A DNA stretch of 32,776 nucleotides from Methanobacteriota archaeon (GTDB lineage: Archaea > Thermoplasmatota > Poseidoniia > Poseidoniales > Poseidoniaceae). The position numbers were made by a program, and so were the translations under genes. Every line of letters begins with the position of its first letter. Position 1 is the stretch's first letter. The stretch covers positions 19,119 through 51,894 of the forward strand of contig PAZU01000007.1 of NCBI GenBank assembly GCA_002715725.1, written 5' to 3'. This document shows positions 3,989 to 21,980 of this stretch, piece by piece. The notes under the pieces are model-generated. The model was given only the letters and a program-made list of their open reading frames with translations, was not told the origin of the DNA and did no database searches.

Positions 3989-5692
3989 ATGGGTCTAAAG
4001 GAAAAGTTCGGAATTGACCTCGGAGTTTTCAAAGATTCAACTACTTGGAAAGCATTGGGAATCGGTATTGTTTTATTTTCAATAATCGGATATGCTGGTC
4101 TGTCGATGTTTGATCTAGCATCATCTGGTTATGGAGTCGATAGAGATAACATTCGTCTCGCACCTGATTTTGAGGTGGAATCCGTAAATCGTTCAATTGA
4201 AGAAAGTGGCTATGTTAATGAAACTGGATGGTTCCAATTATCCGAACATAGAGGAAAGGTTGTCATCGTAGATTTCATGGCAATCGATTGCGCGAATTGT
4301 CATTTAGTACAAGCACATTTGGAGAAAAAATTTGATGATTGGCGTGAATATGATGGCGATTATGAGATAATCATTGTTTCAGTAGGAATGTGGTACTCAA
4401 TCGAATCATTGGACATGTTGAACAACACATTTGGCGACCCTGATTCAGACTCGCACATGCCTTGGATTGTAGCGTCTGGAGACACAGATTCAGTACTGAA
4501 ATCAGAAATTGTACATTCAGGTTTTAACTCATCAGAAGTAGACTTGGATGACGGCACTTATTGCCTTGAAGCACAAGTGAATGAATCACAAAAGGAAGTC
4601 TCATGCTTTGACGTTGGACAAGGCCTAACCGATAACGACGATTTGGATGTTGATGTTGAAGGAATAGAGGTGACTATCCATGAAAATACATCGATCAATT
4701 TCACAATTGAGACCACTCTAGAAGGAAACATCACTTGGGAAATTATCGAATTCACTCGTGGAGATATGGTAGAAGAATATCAAGCACAGGCAATTCCAGT
4801 TGCTTTGGTAATTGACCATGAAGGATATATTGTTGCTAAAGAGAGTTCGGGGACACCCACCGGTGGTTGGGATGAATTCGATTCAGCGGTATTTGCGGCT
4901 GCAGATGGCGATGCAGAAAACATGAGATTCTCTTTAGCAGAAGTCGATCGCTCAGCAGGTGCAATTTTCACTATGGGGTTACTACTTGGTGTGCTGGTCT
5001 ACTTCTCACCTTGTGCATTCCCAATTTTACCAGGTTATATCTCATATTATGTGGGCCTTGGTCAGCGTGAAGATGAACTAATGGAAGCTGGGAAACTTGA
5101 GAGTAAAATGCCTGCGCATTGGATATTGGGAGGATTAGCGGCTCTTGGGCAACTTACTTTCTTCGCGATAATTGGAGTTGTTATACTTGGACTTGGTAGT
5201 ATAATCAACCTGTCAGGAGTGTTGCATTATTTCGCTCTTGCAGTAGCAATTCTTCTAATCGTTCTTGGAGCATTCATGCTAACTGGAGGTACTGCACATT
5301 TACTTGGCTTCGTCCAAAAATTAGTTGACAAATATTCTACAACTGAAATGGATGACAAATTCACTCCAAGACGCAATATGTATCTGTGGGGGATTGGATA
5401 CTCTGCAGCATCCATTGACTGTACAGCAGCAGCGGTAATACCTTTCATTGCATATCTTGCATTGATTGGTGGGGCTGCGACTTGGACAGGATTAGCAGGC
5501 CTAATGCTGTCTGTAAGTTTGCTGATGATTACGGTGACGACAGTTGTCGGCCTAGGGCAACAACGTTTCATCAACATTCTGAGAAGGTCTACAGGACTAA
5601 TCAAGGCGATAGGTGCTTGGATGATGATGATGGCAGGAATAGCCCTGACATTTTACTTGACTCAGCCGGAACTAATTGCAAGTTGGATGTAA
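3989..5692 (+). CDS. Membrane-anchored thioredoxin-like domain fused to a CcdA/DsbD-type transmembrane electron carrier
   Basis: 567 residues from the ATG at 3989; the frame extends to a TTG at 3950. An N-terminal helix (about 21-43) anchors the protein. A TlpA/redoxin-like domain follows, with active-site CANC at 101-104. The matching cis-Pro strand (QAIPVALVIDHEG, P270) comes only after an Asp/Glu-rich insertion (about 180-262) that holds C192 and C206. From about 325 to 565 there is a CcdA-type membrane domain: SPCAFPILPGY (C342) and SIDCTAAAVIPF (C478) provide the paired intramembrane cysteines, with about six helices. By family knowledge CcdA passes electrons from cytosolic thioredoxin across the membrane; the fused extracellular thioredoxin would receive them and reduce exported proteins. 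The order is reversed relative to bacterial DsbD, which has its thioredoxin domain at the C-terminus. Confidence 0.85.
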   Translation: MGLKEKFGIDLGVFKDSTTWKALGIGIVLFSIIGYAGLSMFDLASSGYGVDRDNIRLAPDFEVESVNRSIEESGYVNETGWFQLSEHRGKVVIVDFMAIDCANCHLVQAHLEKKFDDWREYDGDYEIIIVSVGMWYSIESLDMLNNTFGDPDSDSHMPWIVASGDTDSVLKSEIVHSGFNSSEVDLDDGTYCLEAQVNESQKEVSCFDVGQGLTDNDDLDVDVEGIEVTIHENTSINFTIETTLEGNITWEIIEFTRGDMVEEYQAQAIPVALVIDHEGYIVAKESSGTPTGGWDEFDSAVFAAADGDAENMRFSLAEVDRSAGAIFTMGLLLGVLVYFSPCAFPILPGYISYYVGLGQREDELMEAGKLESKMPAHWILGGLAALGQLTFFAIIGVVILGLGSIINLSGVLHYFALAVAILLIVLGAFMLTGGTAHLLGFVQKLVDKYSTTEMDDKFTPRRNMYLWGIGYSAASIDCTAAAVIPFIAYLALIGGAATWTGLAGLMLSVSLLMITVTTVVGLGQQRFINILRRSTGLIKAIGAWMMMMAGIALTFYLTQPELIASWM

Positions 5693-5713
5693 GTTCTCAA
5701 ATAATCTGAGAAC
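5693..5713. terminator. Bidirectional terminator-like hairpin between convergent genes
   Basis: GTTCTCA (5693-5699), a 7-base loop and TGAGAAC (5707-5713) form a perfect 7-bp stem. It begins one base after the thioredoxin-CcdA stop and overlaps the last codons of the convergent archaellin-like gene, where it could end transcripts from both sides. No long T-tract follows, so the role is inferred from symmetry and position. Confidence 0.5.
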
Positions 5714-6320
5714 CTATTTCTCGGCCATTTGATAATGTCAATATTTGATGTGTTGAAGGTCCATTCGGAATGTGCAGCCAAAGGTTTGCAGAAATTCCCT
5801 CCCTGTCAAGATGTACAGGTCCACATTGATCCCCTCCCGGTGCAGCTTGTGTACCCCCATCTAAGGTGAAGAAATATCTTCCACCTGGCTCGAAATTGTC
5901 TACATTATCTGCCTCAGTTGTAGGTCTTTCAGTTCCTACTTCCCAAACGAAAATTGCAGAACCACCGTTGGAGAATCCTAACATTGCCGAACGGTAAAAG
6001 AAATCTCCATCATCTTCAGTACAGGTTAGAACATAATGTACGTCTTGACGAGTTAATGGGTCACCGGTTGCACCGAATTCCATCATGAATAGCATATCAT
6101 CATAGTTGTCATAGACCCAAGCGCCGGTAATTATTACCGAATTGGCAACATCTCTTCTGACATCTTCTGCAGTGTTCTGACTGTTTTGGGTAAGTTCTTC
6201 AGTAATATGGATAATAGTGAATGAGACTATTGAAGTGAATAAAATAATCCCGACGAAAATAATCATTGCACCTATTCCCATAGCGCACTCTTCTTCGGAA
6301 ATAATTCGATTTCTTCGCAA
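5697..6320 (-). CDS. Archaellin/archaeal pilin-like protein (second of a pair)
   Basis: 207 residues if translation starts at the TTG at 6320, nine bases past the stop of the upstream paralogue; the open frame goes back to 6380 but would then overlap that gene by 52 bases. The N-terminus has a basic stretch (LRRNRI), acidic residues (EEEC), then MG followed by IGAMIIFVGIILFTSIV. This is the class III signal layout, probably cleaved after the Gly by an archaeal prepilin peptidase. The remainder is a beta-rich, Asp-rich extracellular domain with Cys in VLTCTEDDGD and GGDQCGP. The hydrophobic helix would pack into a filament core. It resembles archaellins (FlaB/ArlB) in the N-terminal third only. 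No archaellum motor genes are nearby, so a minor pilin or another filament is equally possible. Confidence 0.7.
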   Translation of the reverse strand: MRRNRIISEEECAMGIGAMIIFVGIILFTSIVSFTIIHITEELTQNSQNTAEDVRRDVANSVIITGAWVYDNYDDMLFMMEFGATGDPLTRQDVHYVLTCTEDDGDFFYRSAMLGFSNGGSAIFVWEVGTERPTTEADNVDNFEPGGRYFFTLDGGTQAAPGGDQCGPVHLDREGISANLWLHIPNGPSTHQILTLSNGREIGSQII

Positions 6321-6328
6321 AATATCAC

Positions 6329-6898
6329 CTAATTCAAATCTTGTCCTTGATATGGAGCGCTTCCGATATCCATTTCCCACTCTTGAGTTCTACCTCTGTC
6401 GACCATTAAGATTAATGTTGCTTCATCGATATCATTCAAATCACAGTCTTCAAGAGGAATAATCATTCTGTAAGTGACGGCTGGTTCAAATTGTTCTAAT
6501 GGTAGGTCAGTTCTACCATCACCGTCAAGGTCGGTAGCAAGTACGAAGTCTCCTTCATCGAAATTCACATTGTTGGAACCAGATGGATTACACATTACGA
6601 CCCATGCTAAATCATCGTCGGCAACAGCACTTTCGATGTAGGGTAATTCAAAGACAATATGGATTTCATCATCTGCTCCTAGTGAGAAGATTTCCAAGAC
6701 AACAATGTTGACAATACCTTTCACGCTAGGGACATTTTCTTTTGCATCAGTCTTGGTTTCGGTGAATACTTTTTCAGCGAATCCAATAACGACTCCCGAG
6801 ATTATTGAACTCACTAGGATGATTGAAATGAATACGATCATCGCGCTGATGCCTTGGCTGGCATCATCCGAATTCATTGACCTACGCATCTTCCTCAT
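6329..6898 (-). CDS. Archaellin/archaeal pilin-like protein (first of a pair)
   Basis: 189 residues. The N-terminus reads MRKMRRSMNSDDASQG, then ISAMIVFISIILVSSIISGVVIGF: positive charges, a Gly and a hydrophobic helix, as in archaellins processed by FlaK/PibD-type peptidases. After the helix, TETKTDAKENV and GIVNIVVLEIFSLGADDEIHIVFELP follow the archaellin order of a polar linker leading to beta strands. The mature domain is strongly acidic (DEGDFVLATDLDGDGRTDL, with a possible Ca-binding DLDGDGRTD loop). It is first in a two-gene unit with the paralogue downstream and has its own AT-rich promoter box 25 bases upstream. Archaellin-like is a confident description of the N-terminus; filament type and function are not known. 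Confidence 0.72.
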   Translation of the reverse strand: MRKMRRSMNSDDASQGISAMIVFISIILVSSIISGVVIGFAEKVFTETKTDAKENVPSVKGIVNIVVLEIFSLGADDEIHIVFELPYIESAVADDDLAWVVMCNPSGSNNVNFDEGDFVLATDLDGDGRTDLPLEQFEPAVTYRMIIPLEDCDLNDIDEATLILMVDRGRTQEWEMDIGSAPYQGQDLN

Positions 6899-17287: not shown

Positions 17288-18397
17288 ATGGCAGCACAGC
17301 CTCCTGTTCGTACCGCACTTTACGAAGAGCATCTTGCTTTAGATGCAAACATTGTTGACTTCCATGGTTTTGAATTACCCATTTGGTATTCAAACATCTC
17401 CGAAGAGCACCTAGCTTGCCGTTCAAATGCTGGTTTGTTCGATGTATCACACATGGGTTCATTCAGATTTTCCGGTAGCGGAGTCAGGAATTGGCTTGAA
17501 TCAATAGCAACTCAAAAATGCTCTTCAATTGAACCTGGAAGATGTGCTTATACCCATTTTCTAGACCATGATGGATTTTTGATCGATGACATGATTTTTG
17601 CAGTTGTTTCAGAAGAAGAGATTTTGGGAGTTCCCAATGCAAGCATGGTTCCAGTAATGTGGAAATGGTTCAACTCATTATTACCTGAAGATGGCTCAGT
17701 AACAATTGAAGATTTATCTCCACGAACTAGTATTATTGCTCTACAGGGTCCAAATGCAAGGAAATATTGCGAGGCAGTTCTCGGTAATGAGAATCATGTC
17801 GGTAGATTTAGATGGGCAAAACTCCAAGAAAATTCTCTTGGAGTGAATGGATGGATCCAAGGCACAGGATATACTGGCGAGCCAGGTTATGAGATATTCA
17901 TCTCAAATAGTGATGCTCCAACACTTTGGCGTAGTTTAGTTGAGGCGGGGGCAACTCCTGTTGGACTAGGTGCAAGAGACACTCTTCGCTTAGAGAAGGG
18001 ATATCTTTTGTCAGGTGTCGATTTTGCATCTCCCGACCTGGATGACAACACGATGTTGCACAGGGATTCTTGGGAAACCAATGTTCCATTTGGGCTGGAT
18101 ATTGAACACGAATTTATCGGACGTCATCGAGTCATTTCTCATTCACCAGATAATGCAAAGTGGTGGGGGATAAAGCAACTCGAAAGAGGACCTCTGCCTC
18201 GTGGCGGCAAGATAGTTGAAGATTTGAATGGGAATTCAATTGGTACACTGACTAGCGGGGCGCCGGCTCCTTCGCTTGATAGAACCGGAATTGGAATGGG
18301 TTACATTGCTGGCGTTTCACCTGGTGACGAGGTCATGATTGTCGCCTCACCGCGGAAGAAAGTGCGGGCAGTAGTAGTTCGCCCACCCTTTGTCTGA
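17288..18397 (+). CDS. gcvT: Glycine cleavage system T protein (aminomethyltransferase)
   Basis: 369 residues, the normal GcvT length. Recognisable elements are FHGFELPIWYSNISEEHLACR (26-45), GLFDVSHMGSFRFSG, YTHFLDHDGFLIDDMIF (88-104, containing the family's conserved acidic residues), GYTGEPGYEIF and GLGARDTLRLEKGYLLSG. The C-terminal barrel includes the late GTLTSGAPAPSL element. It transfers the methylene group from aminomethyl-GcvH to tetrahydrofolate (or an archaeal pterin) and releases ammonia. gcvPA and gcvPB lie 4.6 kb downstream on the same strand; gcvH is not in the window. A perfect hairpin follows two bases after the stop. Confidence 0.94.
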   Translation: MAAQPPVRTALYEEHLALDANIVDFHGFELPIWYSNISEEHLACRSNAGLFDVSHMGSFRFSGSGVRNWLESIATQKCSSIEPGRCAYTHFLDHDGFLIDDMIFAVVSEEEILGVPNASMVPVMWKWFNSLLPEDGSVTIEDLSPRTSIIALQGPNARKYCEAVLGNENHVGRFRWAKLQENSLGVNGWIQGTGYTGEPGYEIFISNSDAPTLWRSLVEAGATPVGLGARDTLRLEKGYLLSGVDFASPDLDDNTMLHRDSWETNVPFGLDIEHEFIGRHRVISHSPDNAKWWGIKQLERGPLPRGGKIVEDLNGNSIGTLTSGAPAPSLDRTGIGMGYIAGVSPGDEVMIVASPRKKVRAVVVRPPFV

Positions 18398-18398
18398 T

Positions 18399-18417
18399 AA
18401 CGCCCCTAAGGGGCGTT
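18399..18417 (+). terminator. Strong GC hairpin between gcvT and the surface-protein gene
   Basis: AACGCCCC-TAA-GGGGCGTT is a perfect 8-bp stem with a 3-base loop starting two bases after the gcvT stop. It looks like an intrinsic terminator stem, but only GCTTTG follows rather than a long T-run. It ends 32 bases before the next start codon and could act as a terminator, attenuator or 3'-end stabiliser. Confidence 0.5.
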
Positions 18418-18449
18418 GCTTTGATGAGGGATTACCGCTAGGGTCTGAT

Positions 18450-21400
18450 ATGCGCCGCACCTTAGCCGTCGGTATCCTTGCCTGTTTTCTACTCTCGATA
18501 GTTCCAGCAATTTCTGATTCCCCAATAATTGTGGAAAGAGATGGGGAGGCAATCGGAGACTCTAGATTAATCGATGATTCCGAGATGACACTAGAACAAA
18601 TCAATGCCCTAAATGCAGTAGGTATGGCTCGTGGAACAAATACAAATTGGTCTACAGCGGGCGGTTCTCAAAGTAACGATGAGATTTATGAAATGATTTT
18701 TGATTCACAGGGTAACATCATTATTTGCGGTACAATCTACCAAGCATCTCAATTCGGAGCAATTCAGGTTTACACTGAAGGTGAAGGAGATATTCTAATT
18801 GCCAAGTTATCAAAAGATGGTGTTTGGGAATGGGCAGTTTCAGCAGGTACTGCACTCTACTATGACGAATGCAGAGGAGTGACAATCGATTCTAATGATA
18901 ATGTGTATGGAACGGGTTACTTCCAAGGAGAAGTTAACTTTGGAAATACTACAGTTTACACAACTGGTTTCGATGGATGGATTGCACGAGTAAATGCCAC
19001 TGGTCAATGGGACTGGGCTATTAAATTCGGTGGATTCGATGTGGATGTAGGATGGGATTTAGCTGCTGACAATCATGATAACTTGTACGTTACCGGATAC
19101 TATCAGAACTTTACAGAATTTGATGCAACTCAATTGAACGATGATGCTGGATCAGAGAACCCGCGATTCTTCCTTGCATACTACAACATTAGCGCAGAAG
19201 AGTGGGATTGGGCCAAGAATTCGTATGGTGATGGAGTTTCAGTTGCTTATCAAGTAGTAGTAGAAACAAGTACAAATTCAGCTTACGTCGTTGGATATAA
19301 TACTGGTAATGAAGAATGGGGTGGAACATTCATTTCAAATCCACAATCGACTTATGCTGGATTCTTGGTTAAGTACTCAGATTCAGGAAGTTTCATTTGG
19401 GGCCAAAATACTGGAGGGACACAATGCTTTGGAACTAATTGTGGTGTTTATTTCAACAATGTCGTTATGCATCCTGATGGTGGAGTCGTAGTCGGTGGCA
19501 ACTATCTGATGAATTACAAAAAACAGAGCGGTGCATCAGTTGGAGGCCAAGGTAGTTGGGATGTTCTATTGTTGCGCTATGATGCTAATGGTACACAGTT
19601 ATGGGACTATAATGCTGGTGGAAACGGTGATGACAGAATCCAATCACTCTCTGTAAACCCTAAGGGTCAAGTCCAATTTGGTGGCTGGCACGGAGATGTG
19701 ATGAAGTTTGGTTCTAACACTCTTCAGAAGAATAGCTCAACCATTTACTTCGATGGATTCATGGCACAGGTTGACAATAACTCCGACTACCAATGGTCGA
19801 TGAGTATTGGTGGCGCCGGTAATGATACTGTAGGTGCTTTACTTGCAATGGATGATGGAACGATTGTCTCAGGAGGAGATTTCAGTGGAACCGTATGGTT
19901 TGGAGATACTCCAAGAAGTGCTACAGACCAAGATATATTCGTTTGGGTATTCCAACATGACAAGGATGATGACGGCATTACTGATTATACAGACAACTGT
20001 CTAAACACTGCGAATTCAAATCAAAGTAATTTTGACTCTGACATCAAAGGAGATGCTTGTGATACCGACGATGATAATGACGGACTCCACGATGTGCTTG
20101 ATGATTGCCAATATGGATTTATGAATTGGAACCAATCAAACACTTCTCTTGACCATGATGAAGATGGTTGCAAAGATATCGAAGAGGACAATGATGACGA
20201 TAATGACGGTATTCTAGATGGTGATGACAACTGTCCATCCGGAGTTCTAGATTGGGTTGTCGACAATTCCAGTGACCTCGATGGCGACGGATGCAGGGAT
20301 ATCGACGAAGATACTGACGACGATGGTGATTCAATATTAGATGTGGATGACAATTGTCAGTATATTGTAAATCCAATGCAAGAAGATTACGAAGATGATG
20401 GAATCGGTGACGTTTGTGATGGTGATGACGATGGTGACGGTATCGATGATATAATCGATGACTGTTACCAAGGAGCAAAAAATTGGACATCAGCGGTACA
20501 AACTGACAAAGATAGTGATGGCTGCGAAGATGAAAATTCCAATGAAGATCCAGACGACGACAATGATGGGATTTTCGACGAATACGATAATTGTCCAAGA
20601 GGAGAGGTAGGTTGGAACTCTTCGCAATCCAATGACCGTGATGGCGATGGTTGTCGAAATGACAATGAAGACAATGACAACGACAATGATAGCGTAATCA
20701 ACGAAGTGGATTTGTGTAAGAATGGAATTACAAATTGGAGAAAGAACGCAACCAATGACAACGATGGCGATGGTTGTATCGACCAGCGCGAAGATACTGA
20801 CGACGACAATGATGGTTTCTCAGACATAATCGATTTCTGTCCTCTGCAAGAAGGAACTGCAACCCAGGGTGGAATGAAGGGTTGCCCTGATTTCGATGAA
20901 GATGGTTGGGCGGATGCTGCTGATGCTTTCTTCCAAGATGAAACACAGTGGAGTGATGGTGATGCTGATGGTTACGGAGATAACCCAGCAGGAAACAACC
21001 CTGACGATTGCCCATTCTTCTTTGGCAACTCCAGTGTTGATAGAACTGGTTGTATTGATTCTGATGGCGATGGCTATTCTGACCCAGAACTAGCTTGGAG
21101 CGTTGCTCAAGGTGCTGATGCATTCGTTGACGAACCAAGTCAATGGGCTGATGCGGATGGAGACGGATACGGTGATAATTTCGAAGGAGTAAATGTTGAC
21201 TTCTGTACTAATGATGCAGGCACTTCGACAATAGACCGATTCGGTTGCCCTGACATAGATGGGGATGGATATTCAGACCCAGATGCATTCTGGGCATACG
21301 ACAAGTGGGAATCACTTGGCTATGGACCTGACTTGTTCCCAATTGATCCAACGCAATGGTTTGACACAGATAACGATGGATTTGGAGATAACTGGGGCGA

Positions 21401-21980
21401 CCCTGAGTGGAACGAATCTCGAGAAGATGAATGGCCAGGTATCTTTGTGCAGGATGCAACTTCAGCAGACATGTGTCCTTTGGTCGCACCAGATGGTCGT
21501 TTCGATGACGATGTGAATTATCCTGGGTGCTTACTAACTGAGCCGAGCGATGGTGGCCAAAGTACCGATGAGGATTCACCAGCATCTGGTGAAGATGAAG
21601 GTATGGGGACTATGACGTTAGTCGGAATCATTGGAGGTGTCGTGGTTCTAGCTTTGGTTGGAGTTATTGTTGTCATGCTCAAAAAGAAACCTCAGCCCAA
21701 AAAGCGAGGTGGTCCAAAATCTCTCACAGATTTGCCTCCTCCTGGTGCCCCGAACTCTACCCCAATGGTGGAATCTGAAGAAACTTCAGAGGAATCCAAT
21801 GAACCTCAAGATGAAGATGAAGTAGAATCAGATGGTGAAATCACCGTTGGTTCTTGGGAAGATTTACCAGGTGGTGATTACCTTGATCCTGATGAAGAAG
21901 GAACTGTTTGGTTCAGGGCTAACAACGGTGAAAATTGGTACCAAAATGCCGATGGTTCATGGACAAAGTGGCAAGATTAG
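18450..21980 (+). CDS. Large cell-surface protein: beta-propeller-like repeats, thrombospondin type 3 repeats, C-terminal membrane anchor
   Basis: 1176 residues from the ATG at 18450, where MRRTLAVGILACFLLSIVPAIS forms a signal peptide; the frame runs back to 18390 across the hairpin. Residues about 45-500 hold roughly seven repeats of about 65 residues of the SBBP/beta-propeller kind, such as GNIIICGTIYQAS, DNVYGTGYFQGEVNFGN and DNLYVTGYYQNFTEF, each with W-D-W strands. Residues 504 to about 1030 are Asp-rich thrombospondin type 3 repeats (DDDNDGI, DNC, DGDGC) that should bind many Ca ions. A membrane helix lies at about 1056-1078, followed by KKKPQPKKRGG, an acidic tail and a Trp-rich end. 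The protein would stand on the cell surface; ligand unknown. No clear TATA box lies directly upstream, so readthrough from gcvT is possible. Confidence 0.85.
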   Translation: MRRTLAVGILACFLLSIVPAISDSPIIVERDGEAIGDSRLIDDSEMTLEQINALNAVGMARGTNTNWSTAGGSQSNDEIYEMIFDSQGNIIICGTIYQASQFGAIQVYTEGEGDILIAKLSKDGVWEWAVSAGTALYYDECRGVTIDSNDNVYGTGYFQGEVNFGNTTVYTTGFDGWIARVNATGQWDWAIKFGGFDVDVGWDLAADNHDNLYVTGYYQNFTEFDATQLNDDAGSENPRFFLAYYNISAEEWDWAKNSYGDGVSVAYQVVVETSTNSAYVVGYNTGNEEWGGTFISNPQSTYAGFLVKYSDSGSFIWGQNTGGTQCFGTNCGVYFNNVVMHPDGGVVVGGNYLMNYKKQSGASVGGQGSWDVLLLRYDANGTQLWDYNAGGNGDDRIQSLSVNPKGQVQFGGWHGDVMKFGSNTLQKNSSTIYFDGFMAQVDNNSDYQWSMSIGGAGNDTVGALLAMDDGTIVSGGDFSGTVWFGDTPRSATDQDIFVWVFQHDKDDDGITDYTDNCLNTANSNQSNFDSDIKGDACDTDDDNDGLHDVLDDCQYGFMNWNQSNTSLDHDEDGCKDIEEDNDDDNDGILDGDDNCPSGVLDWVVDNSSDLDGDGCRDIDEDTDDDGDSILDVDDNCQYIVNPMQEDYEDDGIGDVCDGDDDGDGIDDIIDDCYQGAKNWTSAVQTDKDSDGCEDENSNEDPDDDNDGIFDEYDNCPRGEVGWNSSQSNDRDGDGCRNDNEDNDNDNDSVINEVDLCKNGITNWRKNATNDNDGDGCIDQREDTDDDNDGFSDIIDFCPLQEGTATQGGMKGCPDFDEDGWADAADAFFQDETQWSDGDADGYGDNPAGNNPDDCPFFFGNSSVDRTGCIDSDGDGYSDPELAWSVAQGADAFVDEPSQWADADGDGYGDNFEGVNVDFCTNDAGTSTIDRFGCPDIDGDGYSDPDAFWAYDKWESLGYGPDLFPIDPTQWFDTDNDGFGDNWGDPEWNESREDEWPGIFVQDATSADMCPLVAPDGRFDDDVNYPGCLLTEPSDGGQSTDEDSPASGEDEGMGTMTLVGIIGGVVVLALVGVIVVMLKKKPQPKKRGGPKSLTDLPPPGAPNSTPMVESEETSEESNEPQDEDEVESDGEITVGSWEDLPGGDYLDPDEEGTVWFRANNGENWYQNADGSWTKWQD
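19959..21540 (+). repeat. Thrombospondin type 3 repeat-coding region
   Basis: The DNA encodes consecutive Asp/Asn/Gly-rich units in which DDDNDG-type calcium loops alternate with DNC/DGC cysteine positions. Early units of about 45 residues each have NW or DW plus DGDGC. Later units switch to a longer form with DGYGDN, QWxDxDxDG and DRxGCPD. GAT/GAC codons dominate, producing long artefactual His-rich frames on the other strand. Confidence 0.8.

Follow-up and report, generated by a model that had tools for sequence, protein, structure and literature searches.

Anchored thioredoxins of the ResA/TlpA/CcmG type that work with a separate CcdA, as encoded by the resA-ccdA genes of Bacillota and the tlpA-ccdA genes of haloarchaea, are among the closest described counterparts of the protein reported here. 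Mycobacterial DipZ combines a CcdA-type core with an extra β module. Bacterial DsbD has its membrane part between two further domains, a thioredoxin domain at the C-terminus and an N-terminal domain (nDsbD); the latter has been called the sole known oxidoreductase with an immunoglobulin fold (PMC3961690). The two cysteines of nDsbD, C103 and C109, are located on opposite strands of a hairpin within this fold (PMC7347389). The pneumococcal proteins Etrx1 and Etrx2 are TlpA-type thioredoxins of the cell surface whose partners are CcdA1 and CcdA2 (PMC10543277). An archaeal CcdA with a single cysteine pair passes reducing power outward, according to NMR work by others as told in PMC12288474.

The archaeal protein analyzed here shares with the ResA/TlpA/CcmG systems both modules, the gene order and a CxxC thioredoxin, but consists of one fused chain, predominantly uses CxNC and carries a lineage-specific insert. 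Like DsbD, it has a CcdA-like membrane core and a thioredoxin domain in one chain and possibly an extra β-domain with a cysteine pair. However, its thioredoxin domain (residues 56-310) precedes the membrane part (residues 311-567), and the cysteine pair is spaced C-x13-C instead of the C-x5-C of the DsbD N-domain. The likeness to DipZ lies in the thioredoxin-like part (2hyx, Z 15.1), which in DipZ belongs to the C-terminal piece, as judged from PDB titles. Etrx1 and Etrx2 likewise combine a TlpA-kind thioredoxin with CcdA (Etrx2, 4hqz, Z 15.3 against our thioredoxin part), but as separate proteins. Both the parts and the mechanism are known, and the fused order with this insert is a variant; within the wording of our searches, no account of the fusion or the insert was found in titles and abstract openings of the open-licence literature. 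What appears to be a single-chain transmembrane thiol reductase with its thioredoxin first is widespread in Thermoplasmatota, marine group II archaea included. The insert further offers a natural comparison, since one enzyme at one locus occurs both in a form that has the two-cysteine domain and in a form that lacks it, which makes the role of the insert directly testable.

An anchored thioredoxin fused to CcdA

The gene is found at positions 3989-5692 of the 32,776-nucleotide stretch of DNA analyzed (the window), which belongs to an archaeon of the Poseidoniales (marine group II); the gene and all its features described below are on the + strand. It translates to 567 residues followed by a stop, while the opposite strand contains many stops in the frame read and is not open. 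The protein has cysteines at positions 101, 104, 192, 206, 342 and 478 and no others. Re-translation agrees with the initial annotation of this DNA in the placement of the CANC motif (101-104), P270, C342 and C478, as well as C192 and C206.

The N-terminal module is a ResA/DsbE-like thioredoxin with a membrane anchor and the C-terminal module is CcdA, in support of the proposal of an anchored thioredoxin fused ahead of CcdA. In a full-length AF2 model (pLDDT 75.7, pTM 0.58), an anchor helix (residues 17-47; 4037-4129) precedes the thioredoxin domain, and the membrane part is helical; the predicted hydropathy peak is centred at residues 29-36. The first part of the thioredoxin domain (residues 56-165; 4154-4483) contains the CANC active site with C101 and C104 (4289-4300) and matches Pfam AhpC-TSA at residues 58-133, although this, like all Pfam matches of the protein, falls below the Pfam cut-offs. 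The second part (residues 257-310; 4757-4918) carries P270 at the cis-Pro position. The best structural match of the thioredoxin part is DsbE (3gl3; Z 17.2, rmsd 2.2, 141 residues aligned within residues 49-306), and the match to ResA (1st9) reaches Z 17.1 with an rmsd of 2.1 over 135 aligned residues. As well over 80 residues of the span remain unaligned, the insert is presumably skipped in both alignments.

The membrane domain (residues 311-567; 4919-5689) itself matches DsbD_2 only weakly (residues 372-543, E 0.073, under the Pfam cut-off), and at E ≤ 0.01 DsbD_TM is found in two and DsbD_2 in one of 14 family members. It is assigned to CcdA because the family relative L151 matches both DsbD_TM (4.9e-12) and a solved CcdA structure (5vkv, 4.1e-6). 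C342 (5012-5014) is part of an SPCAFP break after predicted helix 323-338, and C478 (5420-5422) lies within predicted helix 460-493 in the motif SIDCTA. CcdA proteins have conserved cysteines in their first and fourth membrane helices, and the same is found here by predicted position, counting the broken helix 323-338/346-359 as one and leaving out 434-449.

Conservation was assessed in an alignment of 47 distinct orthologous ORFs, obtained from 65 ORF rows after removal of the broken L063 and L025 fragments and of identical duplicates. The window sequence is one of 19 insert-bearing rows, L052 is partial and L064 gave no frame long enough. C104, P270, C342 and C478 are present in all 47 orthologues; C101 is seen in 46, the remaining row having a masked X at this position. 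The CxNC motif is found in 45, one of them with a masked residue, the other two having CQSC and CGSC. Apart from the X at position 101, all 47 rows have CxxC and cis-Pro, which the model of the window protein places in a thioredoxin fold, as in ResA, TlpA and CcmG; an outside, membrane-anchored location as in those proteins is predicted from helix 17-47. The 281-residue segment after the anchor helix contains 61 D+E and 14 K+R.

Proposed mechanism

What is established for CcdA and for ResA/CcmG would give an electron order of cytosolic thioredoxin, C342/C478, CANC and target. Our best explanation, to which we assign a probability of about 0.68, is a one-polypeptide transmembrane thiol reductase that probably arose as a tlpA/resA and ccdA fusion and whose insert is accessory and outside the electron chain. 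Electrons from cytosolic thioredoxin would reach C342/C478 in the CcdA part, and this pair would in turn reduce the CANC motif of the ResA/TlpA-type thioredoxin held outside. The targets of the latter would also be outside, with apocytochrome c the most likely one and oxidized surface proteins perhaps others. Apocytochrome c is our guess for the substrate, as proteins of a cytochrome c assembly family are encoded in all 21 genomes examined, including that of the window. VKOR is encoded in 16 of the 21, again including the window genome, so that disulfides are probably made outside the cell.

Domain order across Thermoplasmatota and beyond

The thioredoxin-first order had been taken for a special reversal of DsbD, a view that is not supported, given that this order is frequent in the phylum and matches that of tlpA/resA-ccdA gene pairs. 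A phylum profile built from ten insert-free forms and four paralogues found a match in 129 of 243 genomes at E ≤ 1e-10, many of the matches covering one module only. Among 18 stretches picked non-randomly from the match list, 14 encode thioredoxin and then CcdA in one frame, four of these with exactly four cysteines (L149, L150, L155 and L156), and three have adjacent genes with thioredoxin first (L146, L147 and L148). The remaining stretch, L154 (G000:C53), is the window genome's own second profile match, a lone thioredoxin-like frame of 221 amino acids with cysteines four apart (93 and 97); we guess that it is perhaps of the SCO type. Overall, fused thioredoxin-CcdA proteins are found in many Thermoplasmatota families.

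The minimal relative L151 also matched 169 plasmid records, while the plasmid collection searched with the window protein gave no match. In the annotated records among the best 25 of the 169, the matched region covers a CcdA gene together with one for TlpA or ResA. Of two records read in detail, that of Natribaculum luteum has the order SCO-TlpA-CcdA and that of Cytobacillus oceanisediminis the order ResA-CcdA-ResB. As common thioredoxin/CcdA gene pairs share the order of the fusion, no inverted DsbD is required. The protein probably originated when adjacent tlpA/resA and ccdA genes, arranged as they commonly are, became fused.

Three Thermoplasmatota stretches encode much longer thioredoxin-CcdA frames of 904-935 amino acids (L140, 1138-3882; L141, 1178-3982; L142, 1519-4230; all on the - strand). 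They have an extra front region with a CxxC motif, for which L140 gives weak matches to Omp28 models. Another region contains a C-x5-C that is conserved in three of three (GEExCDxxGVCxAY) and has the spacing of nDsbD C103/C109. Neither Pfam nor the PDB gave a match in support of kinship between this region and nDsbD. As candidates for a DsbD-like relay, these proteins seem more promising than the insert of the window protein.

Extent and origin of the insert

CANC and the cis-Pro strand had been described as about 165 residues apart. There are indeed 165 residues between C104 and P270; however, only about 81 of them are inserted, insert-free orthologues spanning 82-89 residues by the same measure. 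From CxxC to cis-Pro, the span is 166-173 residues in 19 orthologues and 82-89 in 28. The insert (residues 171-256; 4499-4756) contains 21 D+E against 2 K+R, which confirms the acidic character attributed to this segment. C192 (4562-4564) and C206 (4604-4606) are present in all 19 insert-bearing rows and gapped in the other 28. The conservation check proposed in the initial annotation came out positive, all six cysteines being kept in 19 of 19 insert-bearing orthologues (one X at 101). The 13 insert-bearing orthologues whose cysteines were counted have six each, none beyond the core four and the pair.

A tree was built from 36 sequences (476 columns, insert excluded), leaving out five insert-bearing rows because of masked residues, as well as eight of the short rows. 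The 14 insert-bearing sequences in it form one clade (support 99). Its sister is the insert-free L048 (support 99), with L018 next (95). Matches are found in 22 of 27 genomes of the genus, 19 of them full length with the insert and three without it (G293, G047 and G049). From these sequences, the insert is best read as a single gain within one genus. The β-domain would have been added once, in one sub-lineage, in the loop ahead of the helix leading to cis-Pro.

A comparison of gene neighbours at 16 loci showed that the nearest short forms share their neighbours with the long forms. L048/L085, L079 (G047) and L080 (G049), all short, are flanked on one side by genes for an aminotransferase and a nucleotidyltransferase, and on the other by PAP2 and the genes following it. 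At L081, L060 and L061, PAP2 is kept and the upstream block is rearranged; L050, L054 and L058 have no PAP2 neighbour among the loci compared. A paralogue mix-up behind the short forms was considered and rejected on account of these shared neighbours. A separate paralogue, a second anchored thioredoxin-CcdA protein (L074-L078; frames of 444-462 amino acids), was kept apart; it is encoded in five genomes of the genus, and the four frames read contain four cysteines each and either CSPC or CGPC. A paralogue of this type was not found in the incomplete window genome.

Predicted fold, sequence and sequons of the insert

The models support a predicted β-domain, as had been suspected, inserted between CxxC and cis-Pro and all-β in composition; a short turn links the successive strands that carry C192 and C206. 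Modelled alone, the insert is predicted to form seven strands and is all-β in the best of five models (pLDDT 75.1, pTM 0.67), the other four ranging in pLDDT from 71.0 down to 42.8. In the full-length model, C192 is part of strand 189-197 and C206 of strand 203-209, which are successive and presumably form a hairpin. The insert is flanked by a predicted strand (160-163) and a predicted helix (260-263) and comes shortly before cis-Pro. Structure searches gave no decisive match (best Foldseek E 0.031; best Z 7.1, to T4 gp9), and antibody-type domains reached Z values of about 4.5-5.3. It should be noted that nDsbD is absent among the fold matches listed, which indicates neither likeness nor difference.

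With a mean pairwise identity of 0.644 against 0.759-0.912 elsewhere, the insert is the fastest-changing part of the protein. In 14 sequences, 20 of its 86 positions are invariant, both cysteines included. A recognizable domain recruited from elsewhere was rejected as its source: an insert profile finds orthologues at E < 1e-36 and otherwise gives weak matches. Pfam searches yielded no convincing family for the insert (best E 0.012), and four weak chains were found among PDB sequences, three of them the lipocalin Can f 6. Homology to surface proteins, at first attractive, was demoted: sub-threshold matches (E ≤ 0.05) across the 292 genomes numbered 10, versus about 15 expected by chance. GxYC...C patterns are present three times in the large surface protein L104 and twice in L165 (shuffled means 0.008 and 0.012), a comparison that is biased, both proteins having been found through the same motif. 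L101-L103, matched likewise, have GxYC without a second cysteine, and L166 and L167 have no such pattern.

The insert of the window protein contains five N-x-S/T sequons. Inserts carry a mean of 4.8 per protein compared with 1.4 after shuffling, and the five sites are kept in 16, 17, 17, 19 and 17 of 19 sequences. However, sequons are not special to the insert, as the thioredoxin part is also enriched (2.5 versus 0.55 shuffled) and insert-free orthologues have one to six in the same region. STT3 is encoded in 17 of 21 genomes, including that of the window. The window genome's STT3 match (G000:C17:54512-55543, outside the window) is part of a 3189-amino-acid open frame, and 16 of the 17 STT3 matches are located in frames of more than 2000 amino acids.

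Possible roles of the insert

The initial annotation suggested that the insert acts as a downstream thiol relay. The invariance of C192 and C206 in insert-bearing sequences agrees with this, whereas the absence of the insert from 28 of 47 orthologues, including the sister L048 at the same locus, counts against it, absence from close homologues having been named in the initial annotation as a refuting result. Because the insert-free orthologues retain the core, an accessory domain is favoured over a relay, and we consider it more likely, at roughly four to one, that the insert braces or decorates the protein than that it carries electrons. The β-domain may be N-glycosylated and braced by a C192-C206 disulfide, and would most likely serve stability, shielding or partner docking. 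General thioredoxin topology counts against an accessory role, in that the insert would be expected to protrude on the same side as the active site.

In a true relay, CANC would reduce C192-C206 and the pair would in turn reduce the targets, as in the immunoglobulin-fold domain of DsbD. We regard this as unlikely, though several features fit: the pair is kept throughout the fastest-changing segment, as a relay would also predict, none of the cysteine-counted orthologues has a cysteine beyond the core four and the pair, the predicted fold is all-β with the pair on successive strands, and the hairpin cysteines of nDsbD provide a precedent (PMC7347389). In addition to the absence of the insert from core-keeping orthologues, the C-x13-C spacing and the richness in sequons argue against it. 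The Pfam searches also listed no DsbD N-domain family for the window protein at E ≤ 1 and no DsbD family for 14 inserts at E ≤ 10, HMMER filters dropping most matches above 0.1, and the PDB sequence matches at E ≤ 10 contained no DsbD chain. Probable disulfide formation outside by VKOR would run counter to such a relay, and the two-cysteine patterns of L104 and L165, a lead from weak profile matches, point away from it as well. In its most far-reaching form, the insert would be an independently evolved hairpin-cysteine relay within the very thioredoxin that feeds it, giving a six-cysteine, three-step conductor within one archaeal chain and a second origin of the nDsbD solution, which we hold to be slightly more doubtful.

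Less probable again, the insert could cap CANC and serve in substrate recognition or regulation, in which case its disulfide state would set access and no electrons would pass on. The position of the insert just before cis-Pro and the invariant cysteine pair would suit a cap, but the tests run do not separate it from a passive brace. A neutral domain gain that is simply tolerated would explain the fast change of the segment, yet is very improbable given its presence in all 19 clade members seen, the retention of its sequon sites and its invariant positions. An accessory, probably bracing or decorating domain outside the electron chain is our preferred reading.

Occurrence and genomic setting

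Within the order, 237 of the 292 genomes contain a match to the window protein, and its close relatives with named records are Poseidoniales or 'Euryarchaeota' marine assemblies. The window genome itself, a 76% complete assembly of 57 contigs, contains one match. No functional partner gene is evident among the neighbours at the loci compared. Directly after the fusion gene, the window encodes two overlapping archaellin-like genes (5697-6898, - strand) identified by Pfam matches, the second below cut-off. An archaellin-like pair also follows the gene in L033, with no archaellin match at the other 15 loci compared. Further downstream (18390-21980, + strand), the window encodes a 1196-amino-acid protein with thrombospondin type 3 repeats and, as judged by eye, a hydrophobic stretch towards its C-terminus.
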